The translations under genes were made by a program, and so were the position numbers. Of a stretch of DNA of 31,608 nucleotides, positions 7,604 to 23,983 are shown piece by piece. The DNA is taken from IMG/VR virus record IMGVR_UViG_3300009335_000004, positions 1 to 31,608 of that record; one strand, written 5' to 3'. The stretch comes from a virus. Position 1 is the stretch's first letter, and each line of letters begins with the position of its first letter. A model generated the notes under the pieces. That model worked only from the letters and a program-made list of their open reading frames with translations, had not been told where the DNA came from and made no database searches.

Positions 7604-9612
7604 TATGCGACTCCCATAGTGCCTTTGTCATTCATTGCTTGATTAATAAGACCAACAATCATTCCTCGTCTTGACTCTAATAAATCATCAAATCCTTCAG
7701 TATCGTTTGCTGTGATATTAAAACTGACATTGACAGACCGCGAAACGTCTTGCTTCTTGGTGTGGTCTATAATTGTTTCTTGTGGGTGAAGTATGGCTGG
7801 AAATCCACCCTTGCCATCAATACCGCCAACTCTTCCGCCTGAACCTGTGTACCCACCCCCATCTCCTGAGAATATACCTTTAATAATATCGCTTATTATA
7901 CCACCGCCACCAGTACCGCCACCCGTACCGCCAGTTAACCAATCCACAGCAGGTTGTGCAATCCTGATTCTAACAAACTGTTCCAGAATGATATTGACCA
8001 TAGACTTGAAAAAATCTTTCATATTAGAAACACCTTGTCCGATATTCATTACCGCATTAGTAATACTATCTTCCATACTTCTAGCAATGTCAGCAACTAT
8101 ACCGTCTAACTTGGCTTCTTTGATTGCATCCGCCGTTTCTTTCCATTCGGCTTGATTTCTGTCCATGTGGTCACCTATATTTTCATAGATATCAATAGTG
8201 GAACTAAGTGTTGTATTTAAGTCTCTATGGACTTTAATTGCCCCTTCCCATTCAGCTTGATTTCTGACCATATGGTTACTCATATTTTCGTAGATATTAA
8301 TGGTAGCACTGAGCGTTGTATTTAAGTCATTATAGGATTTTTTTATTTCTTCAGTCGCTTTCTTTGCGGATTCAAGAGATGTTAAATCAGGCAGACCTTC
8401 ATGAGGGGAGGCGGTTCTGGACTTCATAGAAGCCGTTATTTTTGCTAAGTCGCGTTCAAGGGATAAAATAGCACTACGAAGGGTTTGTAAATGTTGAGCT
8501 TCTCTACTCAACGCGCCACCGAATATTGAACGCTTTGAGGCTTTATCTCTTTCATTTGTTAATTGCTTTTCTAGTTCTCTTAATTTTGCCAGTTCCTGTA
8601 CAATAAGCTGGTATGCTTTTACATCTCCTTGAGCATCTGGCATTTGTTCGAAAGAATCTGTAAACTTATTAATATTGCCAGCCAATAAAGCCAGCCCAGT
8701 TATAGCAATTCTTAATTTCGCGCCACCGAATAAAGCAAGTATAAGTCCAGTGTTTCTAACCCACTCTGGCAAAGCCATGTAGTTAGCGATGGTGTTCTTT
8801 ACAGCAACAGCGATGTCAGCTATAAAACCACCTAAATCTTTAGCACCTTGTATTACCTCTGGACTTTTCAACCAATCGGTTATATCTTGGACAGAACCTT
8901 TTGTTTCGTCAAATATGCCCTCTTTCATAAAGGCAAGACTTAAAGCATCCCAAGCATCTTTCATCATTGATACTTGACCATCGAATGTTTTAGCCAATTC
9001 CTTTGTTGCGCCAACCATAGTAAATGTGCCTTCTTTCCACATATCAACCATGTGTTTTTTGGTTTGCTCTGCTGTGTATTGAACGCCTGTTTGGAATCCA
9101 AGCATTGCTTTTACACCCGTATCACGGAATAAATCAGCCGCGGCTATACCGCCAGAGAATGACCTTTGTAGTTGTTGACCAACTTCCTCAAATGACAAGC
9201 CAGAAACAGCCGCGATATCGCCTGTCATTTTCAACAAATCACCTAACTCGTCTACATTATCAGCAACCGTTAATAATGATGGCGAGGCATTTTGTATTTC
9301 TTGAAGTGTGAAAGGGGCTTCAGCCGCAAATTCAAGCATGGTATCAAATGCTTGGCTTGCATCTTCTGCGTTTCCTGTTATAAATTTAAGGCGGACACCT
9401 AAGTTTTCAACTGTTGCAGTATATTTGAGAGCAGAGCGCAATACAGCACCAGCACCCAATCCGACAAGCGCGCCTTGAAGTGAAAACACCTGTTCTTTGA
9501 CACGCCTAGCGGTACGACCAATACCCTTGATGGCTTTTTTAGATTTGTTTGCACCAAATACAGCACCCTTTGGGTCAACCTTTACTGCAAGAGTTGCTAC
9601 ATTATTTGGCAT
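7603..9612 (-). CDS. Tail tape measure protein, 669 aa
   Basis: Sets tail length and leaves the tail during DNA injection. The N terminus is helical with Gly/Ala-rich stretches (SLQGALVGLGAGAVLRSALK). Residues about 70-230 match the lambda-gpH-like/tape measure N domain (FITGNAEDASQAF, PFTLQEIQNASPSLL). A hydrophobic helix lies near 285-315. Residues about 430-505 contain a 35-residue tandem duplication. The C terminus is Gly-rich (about 570-615) with HPQETIIDH. At about 0.15 nm per residue the tail would be near 100 nm. The gene starts inside the end of the frameshifted chaperone frame. Confidence 0.9.
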   Translation of the reverse strand: MPNNVATLAVKVDPKGAVFGANKSKKAIKGIGRTARRVKEQVFSLQGALVGLGAGAVLRSALKYTATVENLGVRLKFITGNAEDASQAFDTMLEFAAEAPFTLQEIQNASPSLLTVADNVDELGDLLKMTGDIAAVSGLSFEEVGQQLQRSFSGGIAAADLFRDTGVKAMLGFQTGVQYTAEQTKKHMVDMWKEGTFTMVGATKELAKTFDGQVSMMKDAWDALSLAFMKEGIFDETKGSVQDITDWLKSPEVIQGAKDLGGFIADIAVAVKNTIANYMALPEWVRNTGLILALFGGAKLRIAITGLALLAGNINKFTDSFEQMPDAQGDVKAYQLIVQELAKLRELEKQLTNERDKASKRSIFGGALSREAQHLQTLRSAILSLERDLAKITASMKSRTASPHEGLPDLTSLESAKKATEEIKKSYNDLNTTLSATINIYENMSNHMVRNQAEWEGAIKVHRDLNTTLSSTIDIYENIGDHMDRNQAEWKETADAIKEAKLDGIVADIARSMEDSITNAVMNIGQGVSNMKDFFKSMVNIILEQFVRIRIAQPAVDWLTGGTGGGTGGGGIISDIIKGIFSGDGGGYTGSGGRVGGIDGKGGFPAILHPQETIIDHTKKQDVSRSVNVSFNITANDTEGFDDLLESRRGMIVGLINQAMNDKGTMGVA
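8141..8328 (-). repeat. 105-bp-period duplication inside the tape measure gene
   Basis: Positions 8141-8223 and 8246-8328 are close copies at a 105-bp offset. They encode two versions of DLNTTLSxTIxIYENxxxHM followed by RNQAEW. The period is exactly 35 codons, so the frame is kept. The copies differ mostly at third positions and in a few residues, so the duplication is old and under selection. Each unit would add about 5 nm of tail. Confidence 0.85.
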
Positions 9613-14143: not shown

Positions 14144-14302
14144 TCAAAACAAATAAAAACCAGCATTTGCTTTTTTACCCATGGAAGTGAGTTTATCAGC
14201 AAGTTTAAATGCCTCTGTTTCTGTATGCCATATCACTTTGTTGTTTTTATCTCTAAGTATTTTTCCATTAACTCTGACATAATAGTCTTTTTTATTATCC
14301 AT
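14144..14302 (-). CDS. Small basic protein, 52 aa
   Basis: The ATG at 14302 has GGAG 8 bases upstream in a leader that is almost identical to the leader of the next gene (14377-14670). The frame runs 52 codons to TGA at 14144. The sequence has a beta-hairpin-like start (DYYVRVNGKILRDKNNKVIW) followed by an Ala/Lys helix. It lies between two copies of the same hairpin terminator, so it behaves as a self-contained cassette. Function unknown. Confidence 0.65.
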   Translation of the reverse strand: MDNKKDYYVRVNGKILRDKNNKVIWHTETEAFKLADKLTSMGKKANAGFYLF

Positions 14303-14328
14303 TTTAAATCTCCAAATAAATTAAAAGT

Positions 14329-14357
14329 AAAGGGATAACTTGTTAGGCTATCCCTTT
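14329..14357 (-). terminator. Hairpin terminator, copy B of the duplicated element
   Basis: AAAGGGATA and TATCCCTTT pair over 9 bp around the same 11-base loop as copy A. The sixth pair differs (C-G in A, T-A in B) but pairing is kept. The downstream T-tract is broken (TTTACTTTTAATTT), so it may only attenuate transcription between the 97-aa and 52-aa genes. Confidence 0.7.
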
Positions 14358-14376: not shown

Positions 14377-14670
14377 CTAACCGTATCTATCTTTTTTCCA
14401 CTGCTTCTCATTGAAGTATGGTGGCTCATCCCAAAAGTAGCAACCGCTTTCGCTATACAATCCAGAGTCTGGTTCTGGCTTTCCTTTGTACCAGAACATT
14501 ACAACTCCATGTCCTATAGACCCTGCATCTTTTCTACCGTCAACGTGAATTTCATATTCCACATCTTCTAAAGAAAAGACTTTTCCAACTAGGCTTGCCT
14601 TCTTCTCTTCTTCATCTGCTAATCTGTTAAGAGTGTCAGACAAGAACTTTTCAAGTTCATTTGTTTTCAT
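14377..14670 (-). CDS. Hypothetical protein, 97 aa
   Basis: Acidic N-terminal helix (residues 1-25), then a compact beta-rich part with many aromatics (VMFWYKGKPEPDSG, SGCYFWDEPPYF). It follows a consensus promoter at 14782-14810. Its leader shares about 25 bases with that of the 52-aa gene. The two small genes interrupt the head operon between the Mu-F-like gene and the scaffold, a common place for morons. I do not recognise the family. Confidence 0.65.
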   Translation of the reverse strand: MKTNELEKFLSDTLNRLADEEEKKASLVGKVFSLEDVEYEIHVDGRKDAGSIGHGVVMFWYKGKPEPDSGLYSESGCYFWDEPPYFNEKQWKKDRYG

Positions 14671-14781
14671 TTTGAATCTCCAAATAAATTAAAAGTAATG
14701 GTCGTTTGGCTTTATCTTTATTCGCCTACTTGTTTTTAAAGAGCATCTAGAACCTGTCACATTCTTGATTTTATAGTTCCT

Positions 14782-18260: not shown

Positions 18261-19451
18261 TTAAAATCCTTTGATTGTTGCTAACTTTGGTTTGCCTTTC
18301 TTTTTTATCATTGGTTGTAAAGCGTATCTGAGTGCGTCTATGTAGTGGTTATGAGCATCAACAATGACAGGCAGTATGTCACCAGTAACTCTATCAACCT
18401 TATAACTATATCTGACGAACTCACTAGCTGTTTCCATGCACCTGCTGTGTATATGTACCTGCTTAAAACTCCTGATATGCTCAATACCATCTTCTACACT
18501 TCCAGACCACTTATGTACAGACTCAATCATATAGCCTTGTCGCCTCACATAACTGACAGACTCTGGTCGCGCTGAATCTGCTCTTATTACACATCTTTTT
18601 GAATTAGGTATTTGGTCAATTAGGGTGTAGGTATTATCAAGCTCAACCTGAGTACCGCCAGCCTCATAATCAATGTATAAATCATTCCCAATTATAAAGC
18701 ATCTTAGTATCGCTGTGGGGTCTTGCGAGAAACCCCAATCAAGACCGTAATAATAAGTGGCATCTGTTGGTGACTCGAAATCCTCAACTATATACTTATG
18801 CTTAAATATCTGCGCATCAGTAGACTCTTTACATTCACCTTCCCAGATATGTAAGTAATCATCATAATCAATCTCTTTCTGATATTCCATTTCAGAGCGT
18901 AATTCAGAGCTAAAGAAAGGGTTTTCATTATAATTAATCTTAGTTGTTATCTGGTCTGGTCTTTGGTTGACAATAAACCTTTGATATGTTGGGTCAGTAG
19001 CTATATTTGGATTGAACGAAATCCATATTTCAGAGTTTTCTGCTCTTATTGTTGGGATAAGAACATCCCAGCTATCGTTGCTAATCTTCTGCGCCTCTTC
19101 AACCCAGCAAATATCAACTCCTTCAAGAGATTTAATTTGCATCGGGTCGTGCTTCAATCCATGAAAGATAAACTCTGTTCCATTTTTGCCGTATATAGCA
19201 TCTCTCGTAATTCGATAAAAATTACCAATATTATGGTTCTCTATACAAGTGCAAAGAAGTTTGTGAACAGAGTCCCTTATTGAGCCTTGAACCTCACGGG
19301 TGCAGAGAATTCTCTTCTTGGAGTTACCACCAATAACCAATAAAGCTAGAGCAAACCCCCATGACTTACCACCACCCCTGCCACCATAATAAACCTTATA
19401 TCGTTTCGGTTCAAACAGGGAATTAAAAGCAAAAGGAACTTTGACATTCAT
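18261..19451 (-). CDS. terL: Terminase large subunit, Terminase_3 type, 396 aa
   Basis: ATP-driven DNA packaging motor and nuclease. Walker A is GGRGGGKS at residues 23-30, Walker B with catalytic Glu is VDICWVEEAQ near 112-121, and the coupling motif SFNP follows near 145. The RNase-H-like nuclease has Asp in GLDWGF near 213, DSARPES near 284 and DAHNHYIDALRY near 364. The form resembles Sf6/PBSX-like enzymes, which cut by the headful mechanism; that agrees with a circularly permuted genome. ATGA overlap with the small subunit. Confidence 0.92.
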   Translation of the reverse strand: MNVKVPFAFNSLFEPKRYKVYYGGRGGGKSWGFALALLVIGGNSKKRILCTREVQGSIRDSVHKLLCTCIENHNIGNFYRITRDAIYGKNGTEFIFHGLKHDPMQIKSLEGVDICWVEEAQKISNDSWDVLIPTIRAENSEIWISFNPNIATDPTYQRFIVNQRPDQITTKINYNENPFFSSELRSEMEYQKEIDYDDYLHIWEGECKESTDAQIFKHKYIVEDFESPTDATYYYGLDWGFSQDPTAILRCFIIGNDLYIDYEAGGTQVELDNTYTLIDQIPNSKRCVIRADSARPESVSYVRRQGYMIESVHKWSGSVEDGIEHIRSFKQVHIHSRCMETASEFVRYSYKVDRVTGDILPVIVDAHNHYIDALRYALQPMIKKKGKPKLATIKGF

Positions 19452-19798
19452 TCAGGCATGATAAACTCAACAGTGAAATTCATATCACTATCAACATCGA
19501 ACTCTTGTCTTTCAACATAACCCCTTTCTTTACCAATGGTCTTTAAGTATAGTTGAACAGCTTTAAATCGCACAGACTCGTTTTTAGAGCGCATCAATGA
19601 ATGTATCCCTTCTTCTGCTATATCAATGTTTTCTTCTCTAATGTCTTTCAATTGGTGAGGGTCTTTTAATGCTCTTTCTCTGATAGCAATGCGTGAAATG
19701 TCTACATTGTATTCCTTTTTTGCCAAACGAACTGCTCTAGCATAGATACCTGCGCTCTCTCTTAATACTTTCCAAAATTCGTTATCAGTTAATTTCAT
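19448..19798 (-). CDS. terS: Terminase small subunit, 116 aa
   Basis: DNA-recognition subunit of the packaging complex. Short helical protein with an N-terminal Arg/Lys-rich part and the phrase KNESVRFKAVQLYLKTIGKERG near residues 72-93, minus its first bases, typical of terminase small subunits of this group. It overlaps terL by 4 bases. It follows the phosphoribosyltransferase-FolE gene after only 5 bases, so modification and packaging genes share one transcript. Confidence 0.8.
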   Translation of the reverse strand: MKLTDNEFWKVLRESAGIYARAVRLAKKEYNVDISRIAIRERALKDPHQLKDIREENIDIAEEGIHSLMRSKNESVRFKAVQLYLKTIGKERGYVERQEFDVDSDMNFTVEFIMPE

Positions 19799-19803
19799 TT
19801 TTG

Positions 19804-20628
19804 TTAAGTTTTGATAAGTTTTAAGAATTCGTGCCTAGTATTCATATCCTCTTTAAATGCACCAATCATCTTAGATGTTGTAGTATATACATCGTGTTTC
19901 TTTACCCCTCTCATTGCCATACATAGGTGTTGCGCCTTTAAAACAACACCAACCCCTAATGGGTTTAACTCTTTTTGTATTCTTTCAGCAACTTGAGTTG
20001 TTATTCTTTCTTGGTTCTGAAGTCTTCTTGTGTACTTTTCAACCGTTCTTGCTAGTTTTGATAAACCTACTATTCTACCACTTGGGATATAAGCAATGTG
20101 TGCTACACCAAAAAAAGGTGCTAAGTGATGTTCACACAAAGAGTAAAAAGGAATGTTACATTGCACAATCATTTCATCTGTGCCTTCACCGTCAAATGTG
20201 GTAAAGTTAAAATCATCAGGGGATAAGAATTCTTTTAAAAACTTAACATACCTTTTAGGAGTTTCTTTTAGCCCCTCTCTATTTCCATCGTCAAAGTATT
20301 GTATAACACGAGCCATGTTTTCTTCAACTTCTTTATCGCCATCTTTTTCCCATGGAAATTCCAACCAATCTGTAATACCTTCTGCTTGTTTATCATATAG
20401 TCCAATGAATGGCTTGTTATATTTGCTCATATAGGCGTTTTTTGTTGCTCCTGAGTCGATTAGGTCATCAATGATAAAATCTGCCTCTTCTGGGGTGTCT
20501 ACTGGGTTCAAATAAGATGCTATGGCTTGACCGCCTCTTGGAACTCCGTAGTACTTCGAATTATCATCTAAGCCTAACTCTTTTACTCGACTTTTAATAT
20601 CTTTCCAAGTTATGATTCGCTGATTCAC
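19804..20628 (-). CDS. folE: Phosphoribosyltransferase-like domain fused to GTP cyclohydrolase I, 274 aa
   Basis: First enzyme of the preQ0 route: GTP to dihydroneopterin triphosphate. The C-terminal part (about 110-274) is FolE with zinc ligands C165 and H168 in CEHHLAPF and C236 in QHLCMAMRGV. The N-terminal ~105 residues have the PRPP-binding motif DFIIDDLIDSGAT (50-62) and YYGVPRGGQAIASYL (26-40), so they look like a type I phosphoribosyltransferase. I chose the GTG at 20628, which has GGAG upstream and overlaps the queE stop as GTGA; an ATG at 20670 lacks a ribosome site. What the extra domain does is unknown; base salvage or nucleotide handling is a guess. Confidence 0.88.
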   Translation of the reverse strand: MNQRIITWKDIKSRVKELGLDDNSKYYGVPRGGQAIASYLNPVDTPEEADFIIDDLIDSGATKNAYMSKYNKPFIGLYDKQAEGITDWLEFPWEKDGDKEVEENMARVIQYFDDGNREGLKETPKRYVKFLKEFLSPDDFNFTTFDGEGTDEMIVQCNIPFYSLCEHHLAPFFGVAHIAYIPSGRIVGLSKLARTVEKYTRRLQNQERITTQVAERIQKELNPLGVGVVLKAQHLCMAMRGVKKHDVYTTTSKMIGAFKEDMNTRHEFLKLIKT

Positions 20629-21224
20629 AACACTCTCCACACTTTGTGCGATTGTAAAGATAGCTTCCATTTAGGATTGGCTTTACACAGGTCTATACAA
20701 TGTCTGAGATTTTCGCGATTGATTTGAAATCCATCAGAATGAGGGCTTACCCAATAATGGTCAGCCTCAATGCTTGGTTGAGGTATTTCTTGCCCTGAGT
20801 GTCTAACATATTTAAGTTCGTCAACCTTTTTAAAATTCTTCTTGATAACGTGTTCTCCAACTTTAGGAGATAGGGCTACATAATCTAATCCATCAGGAAC
20901 TGGGTTCAAGCCACTTGTTTCTATCGCTTGATAGTACCCTTTATCTTTGAAGAACTTAATCATTTCATCTGTTAGCTGGTCGGTTGGCTCTCCGCCTGTC
21001 CAAGTTATCTCTTTACAACCATGAGCGTTTTGCTTAATCCAATCTACCAGTTGCTCAAGTTGATACTCTTTGCCAGATTCAAACTCCGTATCACAAACTA
21101 TCCCTTTTTTAAAGCAAGCATGTTTCGCTTTACATCCTTGTAAGCGGATGAATACTGTTGGCGTACCAATTCTTAACCCTTCTCCTTGTAAGGAGTAAAA
21201 AATTTCACTAATATTTAATTTCAT
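20625..21224 (-). CDS. queE: QueE-like 7-carboxy-7-deazaguanine synthase (radical SAM), 199 aa
   Basis: Would convert 6-carboxytetrahydropterin to 7-carboxy-7-deazaguanine. The start SEIFYSLQGEG matches QueE very well, and ITWTGGEP (73-80) is the SAM-binding GGEP motif. The cluster cysteines are odd: C31, C37 and C44, spacing C-x5-C-x6-C, rather than C-x3-C-x2-C or the longer C-x14-C-x2-C. C44 is followed by DTEF, as the third Cys of QueE should be. Overlaps queD by 17 bases. Confidence 0.88.
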   Translation of the reverse strand: MKLNISEIFYSLQGEGLRIGTPTVFIRLQGCKAKHACFKKGIVCDTEFESGKEYQLEQLVDWIKQNAHGCKEITWTGGEPTDQLTDEMIKFFKDKGYYQAIETSGLNPVPDGLDYVALSPKVGEHVIKKNFKKVDELKYVRHSGQEIPQPSIEADHYWVSPHSDGFQINRENLRHCIDLCKANPKWKLSLQSHKVWRVL

Positions 21225-21639
21225 AAGATGCTGAACATTTCCTTGTTTCGTCTATTACACATTTAATTAGTTTACAGCCTGTTTTATCTAGCTGTTTAGG
21301 TGCTACAACTTCAACCAAATGTTGAGCGATATTCTCGGCTGTTGGATTGAAAGGTGTAACAACAATATCTTTAGGTACTATATCTATCATTTTTTCCAAC
21401 AACGGGTCGTTCTCCCACATTAGAAACTTGTGGTCATAGTTGTCTTCAAGCCATTGACACAGTTTTACTTTAATCACAGAGAAGTCTATTACTCTACCTA
21501 TAGAGTCTAATTCATCGGTAGCTACAGTAAAATGAAATCTATAGTTATGTCCGTGAATATGGGCGCATTTGTTTTCGTGACCGGATACTCTGTGTCCTGT
21601 GCTTATGTCGTGATAACGAGATGCGGTTACTAAATCCAT
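21208..21639 (-). CDS. queD: QueD-like 6-carboxytetrahydropterin synthase, 143 aa
   Basis: Second step of the preQ0 route. Zinc ligands H16, H29 and H31 (GHRV, HIHGHNY) and the catalytic C25 are present, as are D69-H70 (NYDHKFLM) and E131 (DETRKC), the usual catalytic helpers. PTAEN (99-103) is the substrate-pocket motif. Length is slightly above the E. coli enzyme (about 120). Strong ribosome site AAGGAGAGAGGATG lies inside the end of queC (10-base overlap). Confidence 0.92.
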   Translation of the reverse strand: MDLVTASRYHDISTGHRVSGHENKCAHIHGHNYRFHFTVATDELDSIGRVIDFSVIKVKLCQWLEDNYDHKFLMWENDPLLEKMIDIVPKDIVVTPFNPTAENIAQHLVEVVAPKQLDKTGCKLIKCVIDETRKCSASYEIKY

Positions 21640-22295
21640 CCTCTCTCCTTGGCTTCATAATAACCTTTCATTCTTAGCTTGCTTGCTGGGTTGTCGGCTT
21701 TACCTCTACCCCATTCGTTGAGTGTCATATCACCGTCATAATCTGTTAAAGTATCATGGACGATTACACCTAAACAATTAAGGTCACACGCCAATCCCCA
21801 AGTTTCTGCTTTATCCAAATACATCAAAGGTGTATGTATTCTGTAATCACCGTTTCCTAGACCTAGACTTAAAGTGTTCTGCATTGAGTCGATGGTGGTT
21901 CTACGGCAATCTGGGTATCCAGAATAATCTGTTTGACAAACCCCTGTCACAATATCGTTTATTCCTTTCTCGGCACAATAACTACCAGCTATAGTTAGAA
22001 ACAAAATGTTTCTCCCACTGGTAAACGAGGCTGGTAAATCTTTATCAACGTAGCTTTTATCGTTGTGATTAGTGTGTTCAGTTAAACTGCTTCTAGCAAG
22101 CAAGCCTTTGATATTAAATATCTTATACTCAACATTAACAAAATCAGCAATCTTTCTTGCTTGCTTTAGTTCTTGAGAGTGCATTTGACCATAATCGAAG
22201 CCAATAGCTTGCACTTGGTCAAAATTCTTCAGCGCCCAATACAAACACGTTGTACTATCTTGACCACCGCTTAGTAATACTAGTGCTTTTTTCAT
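21630..22295 (-). CDS. queC: QueC-like preQ0 synthase lacking the zinc cysteines, 221 aa
   Basis: Would turn 7-carboxy-7-deazaguanine into preQ0 with ATP and ammonia. The PP-loop SGGQDS (9-14), FTSGRNILFL (91-100), GVCQTDYSGYPDCR and the DKAETW block are all typical. The C-terminal zinc site of standard QueC (CYNG then CGxCxxC before LR) is absent: the region from about 182 reads TLTDYDGD and later NPASKLRMKGYY, with no Cys. So either the fold is stabilised without zinc or this is a distinct subfamily. Starts 2 bases after queF. Confidence 0.9.
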   Translation of the reverse strand: MKKALVLLSGGQDSTTCLYWALKNFDQVQAIGFDYGQMHSQELKQARKIADFVNVEYKIFNIKGLLARSSLTEHTNHNDKSYVDKDLPASFTSGRNILFLTIAGSYCAEKGINDIVTGVCQTDYSGYPDCRRTTIDSMQNTLSLGLGNGDYRIHTPLMYLDKAETWGLACDLNCLGVIVHDTLTDYDGDMTLNEWGRGKADNPASKLRMKGYYEAKERGWI

Positions 22296-22297
22296 AA

Positions 22298-22696
22298 TTA
22301 CCTCTCTTTTTTAAAGTTTGAAATAATCTTTAGTCCGCCTCTAGGAAACTGATTCACTATTACTTCAATACTTAAAGGCTCAATAGCTAAGTATATGTCT
22401 TCAGCTATCTTTTTAGCTAGAGTTTCACAATGCGCCCCATATTCACGATAAGACCATAGGTAGAATTTCATAGTTTTGGATTCTACATAAAACCTATCAG
22501 GCTTATAGATTATCGTTATAGTGTTAAAGTCTGGCTGTCCTGTTGTTGGGCATACAGAGGTGAACTCTTGAGTCGAAACAGAAACTATTAAATCGCCTCC
22601 TGTCCACTCTACCTTTCCTTTTTCAACTTCTTGAATCGCATCAGCTGGGTCTGCTGGTCGACTCATATTTCCGTGTATCGGTATTCTTTTACTCAT
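22298..22696 (-). CDS. queF: QueF-like preQ0 reductase, 132 aa
   Basis: QueF reduces the nitrile of preQ0 to the aminomethyl of preQ1 with NADPH. Short (unimodular) form. The signature EFTSVCPTTGQPDF gives nucleophile C49 and D56, and ESKTMKFYL (72-80) is the NADPH-contact motif. Where B. subtilis has FHE (H96, E97), this protein has HCE: C90 stands 41 residues after C49, exactly the place of the His, and E91 is kept. It could therefore be slower or perform a related reaction. I chose ATG 22696 (AAGGAGCGTCTTATG). Confidence 0.88.
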   Translation of the reverse strand: MSKRIPIHGNMSRPADPADAIQEVEKGKVEWTGGDLIVSVSTQEFTSVCPTTGQPDFNTITIIYKPDRFYVESKTMKFYLWSYREYGAHCETLAKKIAEDIYLAIEPLSIEVIVNQFPRGGLKIISNFKKER

Positions 22697-22712
22697 AAGA
22701 CGCTCCTTGTTA

Positions 22713-23453
22713 TTATAATCTGTGTTCTGCATAGTTTATGAATTTTGTCCACTCTCTTAAGTTATGCTCACCTACTTGTTTGTAATTTGTGAATTTCTTG
22801 TTCTCTGGTTTCTTGATAGTTCTAACTCTATCTTTATCAAACACAGATACAGCTCCATATCTAACTCCACCAATCCATGAACTACTATCTACCGAATGAA
22901 ACCTCAACGATTTAAGCCATTTGAAGTGAGTCATGCCTAATCCGTGTACATTACACTTTTTTGCTCTAGCATCAGCAATAAATTTAGGGATTTTATGATA
23001 TTTACTCTCTTTCAGTCCATCGGTTATAAATGCACCAAAACAGATATAGCTATAATCGTGACATATCTCTAGCCACTTGTCATATCCTCTATTTAAGTGC
23101 CAAACTGGCATTGATTGCCAGCCTACTTTTTTTTCTAGTCGCTCTCTCAACCGCTCCACTTCTTTTAAACCAACAATCTTATCAATGTCCACTTCAACAT
23201 AGTTTTTAATGTTGTGTTTTTTTACATAAACAGCATAGTTGTCTACATATTTCTCCCAATCTACCCCGCGAGCGTCTTTGCCATTCAGATAAGTAAATAT
23301 CCCAGAATCAAGAATAAAGTCTTTCCATTTAGGAAAATAAGAAGTCAAGGTTTTGTCTTTCTGTGAGTAATGGTAGGAAGATAGACAGTATATTTCTTTA
23401 GGTTCAGCATGAGTAAACATAATAAGATTATTAATAGCTAGATAAATCTTCAT
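22713..23453 (-). CDS. dpdA: DpdA-like DNA transglycosylase (TGT-related), 246 aa
   Basis: Would exchange guanine in DNA for a 7-deazaguanine base, by the same chemistry as tRNA-guanine transglycosylase. Supporting motifs: LDSGIF with D49, matching the DSGGF of TGT; VEVDID with D89; a VHGLGMTHFKWL strand near 169; and SVDSSSW with D189, the likely nucleophile. The tRNA-specific C-terminal zinc site of TGT (CxCxxC) is missing, which fits a DNA substrate. It overlaps the ParB-like gene by 4 bases (ATGA) and is followed by queF. The product base, preQ0 or preQ1, cannot be told from sequence. Confidence 0.85.
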   Translation of the reverse strand: MKIYLAINNLIMFTHAEPKEIYCLSSYHYSQKDKTLTSYFPKWKDFILDSGIFTYLNGKDARGVDWEKYVDNYAVYVKKHNIKNYVEVDIDKIVGLKEVERLRERLEKKVGWQSMPVWHLNRGYDKWLEICHDYSYICFGAFITDGLKESKYHKIPKFIADARAKKCNVHGLGMTHFKWLKSLRFHSVDSSSWIGGVRYGAVSVFDKDRVRTIKKPENKKFTNYKQVGEHNLREWTKFINYAEHRL

Positions 23454-23983
23454 GTTTGTAACAGATTCAAAACAATAGATTCTTTAGTTCCTTCGTGATT
23501 AGCAAACAATTCAATGATTTGAGTGTAATCTTCATCGTTGTATTCTAAAACAATCTTGTTGGCATTTTGCTTCTCTGTCGTATCATCTTCAAAAAAATCA
23601 TCTAAATCGATTTCAGATGTACCCCAAGTTTTAAGCCCCCATTTGTCAAGAGCTTCTGTATCCCATTCGGTAGATAATAAATCCCAATCCCACTCACCAA
23701 ATCCTACGTTATCTTTGATAATGAATTCTCTTTGTTGCTCTTCGGTCAAACTACTAGCTTTGATTACTGGTACTTTCTTTAACCCTGCTTCTTTGCAAGC
23801 CACTAGGCGCATATTGCCACCTAATACCACCATATCGTCATTAACAACGATTGGTCTAATATCAAGCATTTGTGGAAACTCTTTAATAGAGGATACTAGC
23901 TTATCTAAGTTCTCATCTTTCAAGACGCGCGGATTGTTTGGGTTGCGCTTTATTTTCTCTAAACTTGTGAGGGTTGCTTTCAT
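23450..23983 (-). CDS. ParB-like nuclease/ATPase-fold protein, 177 aa
   Basis: N-terminal ParB/sulfiredoxin-like domain (about 1-95): NPNNPR near 15, IRPIVVNDDMVVLGGNMRLVA without its ends near 42-62 (the GGxxR box), then a helical part with EWDWDLLSTEWD. The C-terminal part (from about 125) is acidic. ParB-like proteins of this type often sit beside phage DNA-modifying enzymes. Here it is translationally coupled to DpdA, so a role in target choice or DNA opening for DpdA is plausible; bacterial dpd clusters also pair DpdA with DpdB, recalled as ParB-like. Confidence 0.75.
   Translation of the reverse strand: MKATLTSLEKIKRNPNNPRVLKDENLDKLVSSIKEFPQMLDIRPIVVNDDMVVLGGNMRLVACKEAGLKKVPVIKASSLTEEQQREFIIKDNVGFGEWDWDLLSTEWDTEALDKWGLKTWGTSEIDLDDFFEDDTTEKQNANKIVLEYNDEDYTQIIELFANHEGTKESIVLNLLQT

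Follow-up and report, generated by a model that had tools for sequence, protein, structure and literature searches.

The form of the 7-deazaguanine DNA-modification pathway that pairs DpdA with QueF has been published; one example is Streptococcus phage Dp-1, in which liquid chromatography-mass spectrometry detected dPreQ1 and no dG+; in phage CAjan, dpdA was shown to be essential for DNA modification (PMC6884629). Here we describe an operon of this kind in the virus record IMGVR_UViG_3300009335_000004 (31,608 bp, IMG/VR class 'linear'), the whole of which is referred to as the window. The operon consists of seven minus-strand open reading frames (ORFs) at 19804-23983, in the order ParB-N, DpdA, QueF, QueC, QueD, QueE and a phosphoribosyltransferase (PRTase)-FolE fusion, followed by the small (TerS) and large (TerL) terminase genes. 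Dp-1 carries DpdA, QueF, QueC, QueD and QueE and has the same predicted end point, but its DpdA does not match that of the window at E 1e-5, its QueF (45% identical over 88 aa) has the canonical His, and its QueC has the zinc cysteines that the window's lacks. Mycobacterium phage Rinkes and Arthrobacter phage Mufasa8 resemble the window in holding ParB, QueF, DpdA, QueC, QueD, QueE and FolE in a single gene run, but differ in the order of ParB, QueF and DpdA, in a longer and distant DpdA and in the presence of the QueC zinc site. Cellulophaga phage phiSM has DpdA, ParB, QueF, QueC, QueD and a FolE-like protein in another gene order, with a QueF of 31.5% identity and an intact QueC zinc site. 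The Queuovirinae phages VpKK5 and PaMx25, the latter with Gat-QueC as in the dG+ phage 9g, share FolE, QueD, QueE, QueC and DpdA with the window, but have no QueF in the stretches examined, a canonical CX3CX2C motif in QueE, and DNA polymerase genes after DpdA.

Gene content, motifs and relatives support the prediction of a self-contained 7-deazaguanine pathway, and we consider it likely that the operon is a complete virus-encoded route for placing preQ1 in the phage's own DNA. In this route FolE would convert GTP to dihydroneopterin triphosphate, from which QueD would make 6-carboxytetrahydropterin, QueE 7-carboxy-7-deazaguanine (CDG) and QueC preQ0. QueF would then reduce preQ0 to free preQ1, and DpdA, probably aided by the ParB-domain protein, would exchange guanine in DNA for preQ1. 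The guanine released by DpdA might be turned into GMP by the PRTase domain of the FolE fusion and so feed the pathway, and the modified DNA would resist host restriction. Gene calls were checked against Pfam, NCBIfam and PHROGs profiles, which together with the motifs agreed for all seven ORFs of the tight operon set out in the preliminary description. Its position directly before the terminase genes (FolE-to-TerS gap, 5 bp) and its share of the record (4180 bp of 31608, 13.2%, against about 13% claimed) also held. Overlaps were found between ParB and DpdA (4 bp), QueC and QueD (10 bp), QueD and QueE (17 bp) and QueE and FolE (46 bp), but the listed DpdA/QueF overlap is probably an artefact of start choice, because the QueF of relatives begins at the second Met (about 22696 in the window). 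Two of the earlier claims went too far. A complete 31.6-kb phage is not borne out, given the 'linear' class, no terminal repeats in a search of the record and no DNA polymerase among the ORFs scanned. The pathway and its DpdA/QueF form are not new either, being both published (PMC6884629) and annotated in isolates; what appears new, within the literature searched, is the exchange of cassettes with a loop signature in DpdA, together with the metal-site changes in QueC and QueE. Coordinates are collected in Table 1.

Table 1. Features of the operon and of the terminase genes that bound it (positions in the window).
Feature	Position	Strand	Evidence
ParB N-terminal-domain protein, 177 aa	23450..23983	-	PF02195 8.6e-8; phrog_498, phrog_620
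DpdA-like DNA guanine transglycosylase, 246 aa	22713..23453	-	phrog_887 4.8e-45; invariant residues; predicted fold
DpdA residues 138-147, CFGAFITDGL, putative specificity loop where tRNA-guanine transglycosylases have 'GGL'	23013..23042	-	weak profile alignment
QueF, predicted preQ0 nitrile reductase (start probably near 22696)	22298..22732	-	PF14489 2.3e-17; TIGR03139
QueC, predicted preQ0 synthase without zinc site	21630..22295	-	PF06508 5.4e-58
QueC residues 185-208, former zinc site	21672..21743	-	alignment with QueC of L008, VpKK5, phiSM and Dp-1
QueD, predicted 6-carboxytetrahydropterin synthase	21208..21639	-	PF01242 (PTPS) 3e-26; phrog_2389 5.9e-49; CxxxH and HGH motifs
QueE, predicted radical S-adenosylmethionine CDG synthase	20625..21224	-	phrog_2076 2.6e-24; PDB profile QueE 4njg 7.8e-26
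QueE residues 31-44, cluster motif CX5CX6C	21093..21134	-	invariant in 12 aligned copies
PRTase-FolE fusion, 288 aa	19804..20670	-	PRTase ~16-110 (20341-20625); FolE ~113-288
Putative small terminase (operon boundary)	19448..19798	-	position alone; Pfam and PHROGs profiles without match
Large terminase	18261..19451	-	PF04466 1.2e-40; 50% identity to TerL of Nitratiruptor phage NrS-1

Pattern-based scans of sequence collections returned about 80 distinct metagenomic phage loci related to the operon, and all counts from these scans are lower bounds. A recurrent frame, ParB-[DpdA + tailoring genes]-QueD-QueE-(PRTase)FolE-TerS-TerL, was found even where TerL is only ~25% identical, and its slot holds at least five gene sets. 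These are DpdA-QueF-QueC (the window and at least eight other distinct loci), DpdA-QueC, DpdA with Gat-QueC (L048, L204 and L206; PF06508 plus GATase in L204), DpdA accompanied by a short QueC-like protein, and two QueC-less sets that include a phrog_17812 protein, one of them with a glycosyltransferase. Comparison of the window with two loci without QueF, L010 and L029, showed 71-78% identity for ParB and 81-84% for QueC, QueD, QueE and PRTase-FolE but just 39-44% for DpdA, whereas the DpdA of L003, which has QueF, is 76% identical to that of the window. Nucleotide similarity to L010/L029 ends at ~23450 and restarts at 22297-22307, which are the DpdA and QueC borders. On gene trees, the slot type requires 7 changes for DpdA, against 16 for QueD, 13 for QueE, 13 for FolE and 15 for ParB (~20 after shuffling). 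The tree changes, the identity contrast and the breaks at gene borders indicate that DpdA and its tailoring genes are exchanged as a unit within a fixed frame.

Several of the other cassettes have features of their own. At L013:2236-4850 (also in L023, L031, L043, L062 and L092) a different DpdA is combined with a glycosyltransferase (PF00534, 1.5e-9) and a phrog_17812 protein, and QueC is absent, a set that possibly leads to glycosylated 7-deazaguanine in DNA. At L021:995-2707 (similarly in L041, L050, L054 and L063) a phrog_17812 protein accompanies another DpdA, again without QueC, and L021 additionally carries a transporter of the Vut_1 type. Cellulophaga phage phiST, too, has phrog_17812-like proteins. 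At L022:6233-6979 (also L038, L044, L076 and L086) QueC is replaced by a short QueC-like domain after a Zn_dep_PLPC-like domain, the domains having been called on L022.

The DpdA of the window has no meaningful Pfam match and is recognized only by a phage-specific profile (Table 1). Residues D49-S50-G51 (DSG), E87, D89, H170, D189 and W193 are invariant in 43 relatives. A search of PDB sequences with hmmsearch returned nothing relevant, and when the DpdA alignment profile was compared with E. coli Tgt the score was not significant, so that sequence profiles alone miss the relationship to tRNA-guanine transglycosylases (TGTs). The fold had been named beforehand as a point on which the assignment could fail, and the outcome did not refute it: the best PDB matches of the AlphaFold2 model (mean predicted local distance difference test score 89.6) are TGTs (E 4e-5, TM-score to query 0.53-0.63). 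DpdA shares the predicted fold and the DSG base-binding motif with bacterial Tgt but is far shorter (246 against ~375 aa).

In almost every related locus, the ParB gene comes immediately before DpdA. Phage ParB_N domains occur with DNA methyltransferases, and phrog_498, which the ParB protein matches, is itself a DNA methyltransferase carrying such a domain. The ParB-domain protein is therefore probably an accessory of the transglycosylase, which it might load on DNA or direct to its targets. A quite different use of the operon would be to boost the queuosine precursor for host tRNA, as has been suggested for phages that have preQ0 genes and lack DpdA (PMC6884629). Here, however, the same operon also encodes DpdA, which has a specificity loop of its own, together with a ParB-domain partner, and both are kept across the family; we regard a tRNA role as extremely improbable.

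The 7-substituent is positively charged in preQ1 and G+ but not in preQ0. At the position proposed for the specificity loop, DpdA reads CFGAF(I/L)TD(G/N)L in all nine of the nine QueF loci. CFGAF also occurs in two of the three Gat-QueC loci and in none of the 36 remaining loci, including every plain-QueC locus; these mostly read IGGIVTxEI, and the other cassette types carry loops of their own. The association (9/9 QueF loci against 2/39 others) gives a Fisher probability of 3e-8 when shared descent is ignored. Two residues of bacterial Tgt, Val233 and Cys158, influence which 7-substituent the enzyme accepts (PMC3660597). Because CFGAF tracks loci whose expected bases carry a positive 7-substituent, namely those with QueF and some with Gat-QueC, the simplest explanation has DpdA recognize the base in its finished form, which would place QueF before insertion, acting on free preQ0. 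That DpdA and QueF form one end-cassette among several that can be exchanged in an otherwise fixed locus likewise makes it probable that DpdA selects the finished, cationic base.

The order of the two reactions in phages has been stated to be open (PMC6884629), so that DpdA might instead insert preQ0 and QueF reduce the nitrile on DNA, as archaeal QueF-Like acts on tRNA. A DpdA that inserted preQ0 in all loci would need no replacement together with QueF, yet the two swap as a unit; moreover, the DpdA loop follows the tailoring gene, and the QueF of the window is reductase-like rather than QueF-Like. Reduction after insertion is thus unlikely, though it keeps a small share of our confidence.

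The nature of the final base depends on QueF. The window protein scores 105.7 bits against the 86.9-bit cut-off of TIGR03139, the NCBIfam preQ1 synthase model, and its PDB profile match to QueF (1.2e-24) is much better than that to the QueF-Like archaeosine synthase (2.5e-4). Cys61, Asp68, Glu103 and the NADPH motif ESKTMKFY are retained. The preliminary description had left the base as preQ0, preQ1 or a derivative; a 7-deazaguanine is supported, and the presence of QueF, together with a DpdA from the QueF-partnered clade, narrows this to preQ1, which is likely to be the base that enters the DNA.

QueC and QueE depart from their well-studied homologues. All four cysteines of the QueC zinc motif C(x)8CxxCxxC are lost in this lineage (D185, K199, N202 and S205 in the window), while the aligned QueC proteins of L008, VpKK5, phiSM and Dp-1 have them. 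The catalytic residues are nevertheless in place: SGGQDS and YGQMHSQE (fitting SGGxDS and YxQxHxxE), the RN of VPxRN with the arginine of GRN, YPDC, and Y186 as the Tyr after the first zinc Cys. In QueE, for which the top NCBIfam model scores under its own cut-off, the canonical CX3CX2C (or CX14CX2C) before DT is replaced by CX5CX6C, with three cysteines still there. This spacing occurs in every surveyed QueE of the window's lineage, whereas CX3CX2C predominates in the 75 genome records that are more distant. The five close QueE genome records come from small contigs or have phage-like gene sets. Of 171 phage records that match QueE, the best 25 all stay at or below 37% identity. A copy of the locus with both the zinc-free QueC and the CX5CX6C QueE is present in a contig of the cultured bacterium Cruoricaptor ignavus DSM 25479 (L115), perhaps as a prophage. 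In the QueF-type loci L006 and L104-L108, QueE was exchanged as well, with CX3CX18C in place of CX5CX6C.

Several of these observations weigh against free preQ1 being made by the operon and inserted by DpdA. A TM-score of ~0.6 is also compatible with other TIM barrels lower in the match list of DpdA. The equivalence of CFGAF and the GGL loop is tentative, because the DpdA-Tgt alignment behind it has a negligible score, and the loop association yields only 1-3 independent contrasts on supported branches (2-3 in most trees), none opposed and none significant by sign test. QueF has Cys102 where the FHE motif of B. subtilis QueF has His; Cys stands there in all 8 members aligned and likewise in Rinkes and Mufasa8. 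With the zinc site gone from QueC and an unusual cluster motif in QueE, activity of these two enzymes cannot be assumed.

The Cys in QueF raises the question of whether the protein is an amidinotransferase that yields dG+ (archaeosine) in DNA, the more so as QueF and QueF-Like are hard to separate by sequence (PMC6884629) and Gat-QueC, the G+ enzyme of phages, is present in two loci whose DpdA has the same CFGAF loop. We consider this improbable in view of the retained NADPH motif, the TIGR03139 score and the far better PDB match to QueF; in addition, Dp-1 produced dPreQ1 although HHpred labelled its protein QueF-Like (PMC6884629). The loss or alteration of defining metal-binding features in QueC and QueE could also mean that both are inactive relics and that the phage relies on host precursor. 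But both changes are fixed in diverged loci that number in the dozens and have kept their frames intact, and Y35, R99, Y131 and Y189, which mutation showed to be essential in E. coli QueC (PMC13329287), are all retained in the window QueC, which makes inactivity very improbable. The strong conservation of the operon's enzymes among phages that have diverged speaks for their being active.

The partner of FolE, unnamed in the preliminary description of the fusion, is a shortened xanthine/guanine PRTase. The FolE match (PF01227, 4.3e-61) is restricted to residues 119-286, with CEHH and HLCxxMRG motifs, and the best matches of the PRTase domain profile are xanthine/guanine PRTases (7e-4). NF006613 matches the domain in all 22 members (best 2.4e-10), although the domain, reduced to ~95 aa, reaches 17.1 bits against a cut-off of 138. 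The phosphoribosyl pyrophosphate loop IDDLIDSGxT is intact, and it and a W..FPWE tail are near-invariant in the 22 members. Foldseek matches listed for the model were to FolE alone, so the PRTase identity rests on the profiles. Fusions of this kind are also found in VpKK5 and PaMx25. Because the domain sits beside a guanine-releasing enzyme, it may recycle the guanine that DpdA releases.

Host signals are mixed, with TerL pointing to Nitratiruptor phages (50%) and the portal to various hosts (36%), and no host is claimed; genome records carrying the QueE lineage of the window are mainly Bacteroidota plus one Methylococcaceae metagenome-assembled genome. No tRNAs were found in a search of the record. 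Elsewhere in the window, a 97-nt direct repeat (80%) lies within the tape-measure gene (8139-8340), and a 34-nt repeat (94%) occurs at 14300-14333 and 14668-14701, near two adjoining short ORFs.

Taken across the family, these loci may represent a plug-in factory for DNA bases, a tentative picture in which our confidence falls a little short of even. A fixed CDG-making core beside the terminase genes, metal-altered in its zinc-free QueC and CX5CX6C QueE and provided with a guanine-recycling PRTase on FolE, would be combined with a swappable end-cassette whose tailoring enzymes travel with a DpdA that its GGL-type loop fits to a single finished base, be it preQ0, preQ1, G+ or, in the glycosyltransferase cassettes, perhaps a sugar-bearing 7-deazaguanine. 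The CFGAF/GGIVT loop pair names residues through which base choice becomes testable, and sister loci with different DpdA(+QueF) cassettes provide a natural experiment on whether QueF acts before or after base insertion. The zinc-free QueC and the new cysteine spacing of QueE likewise offer a test of what these much-studied enzymes need.

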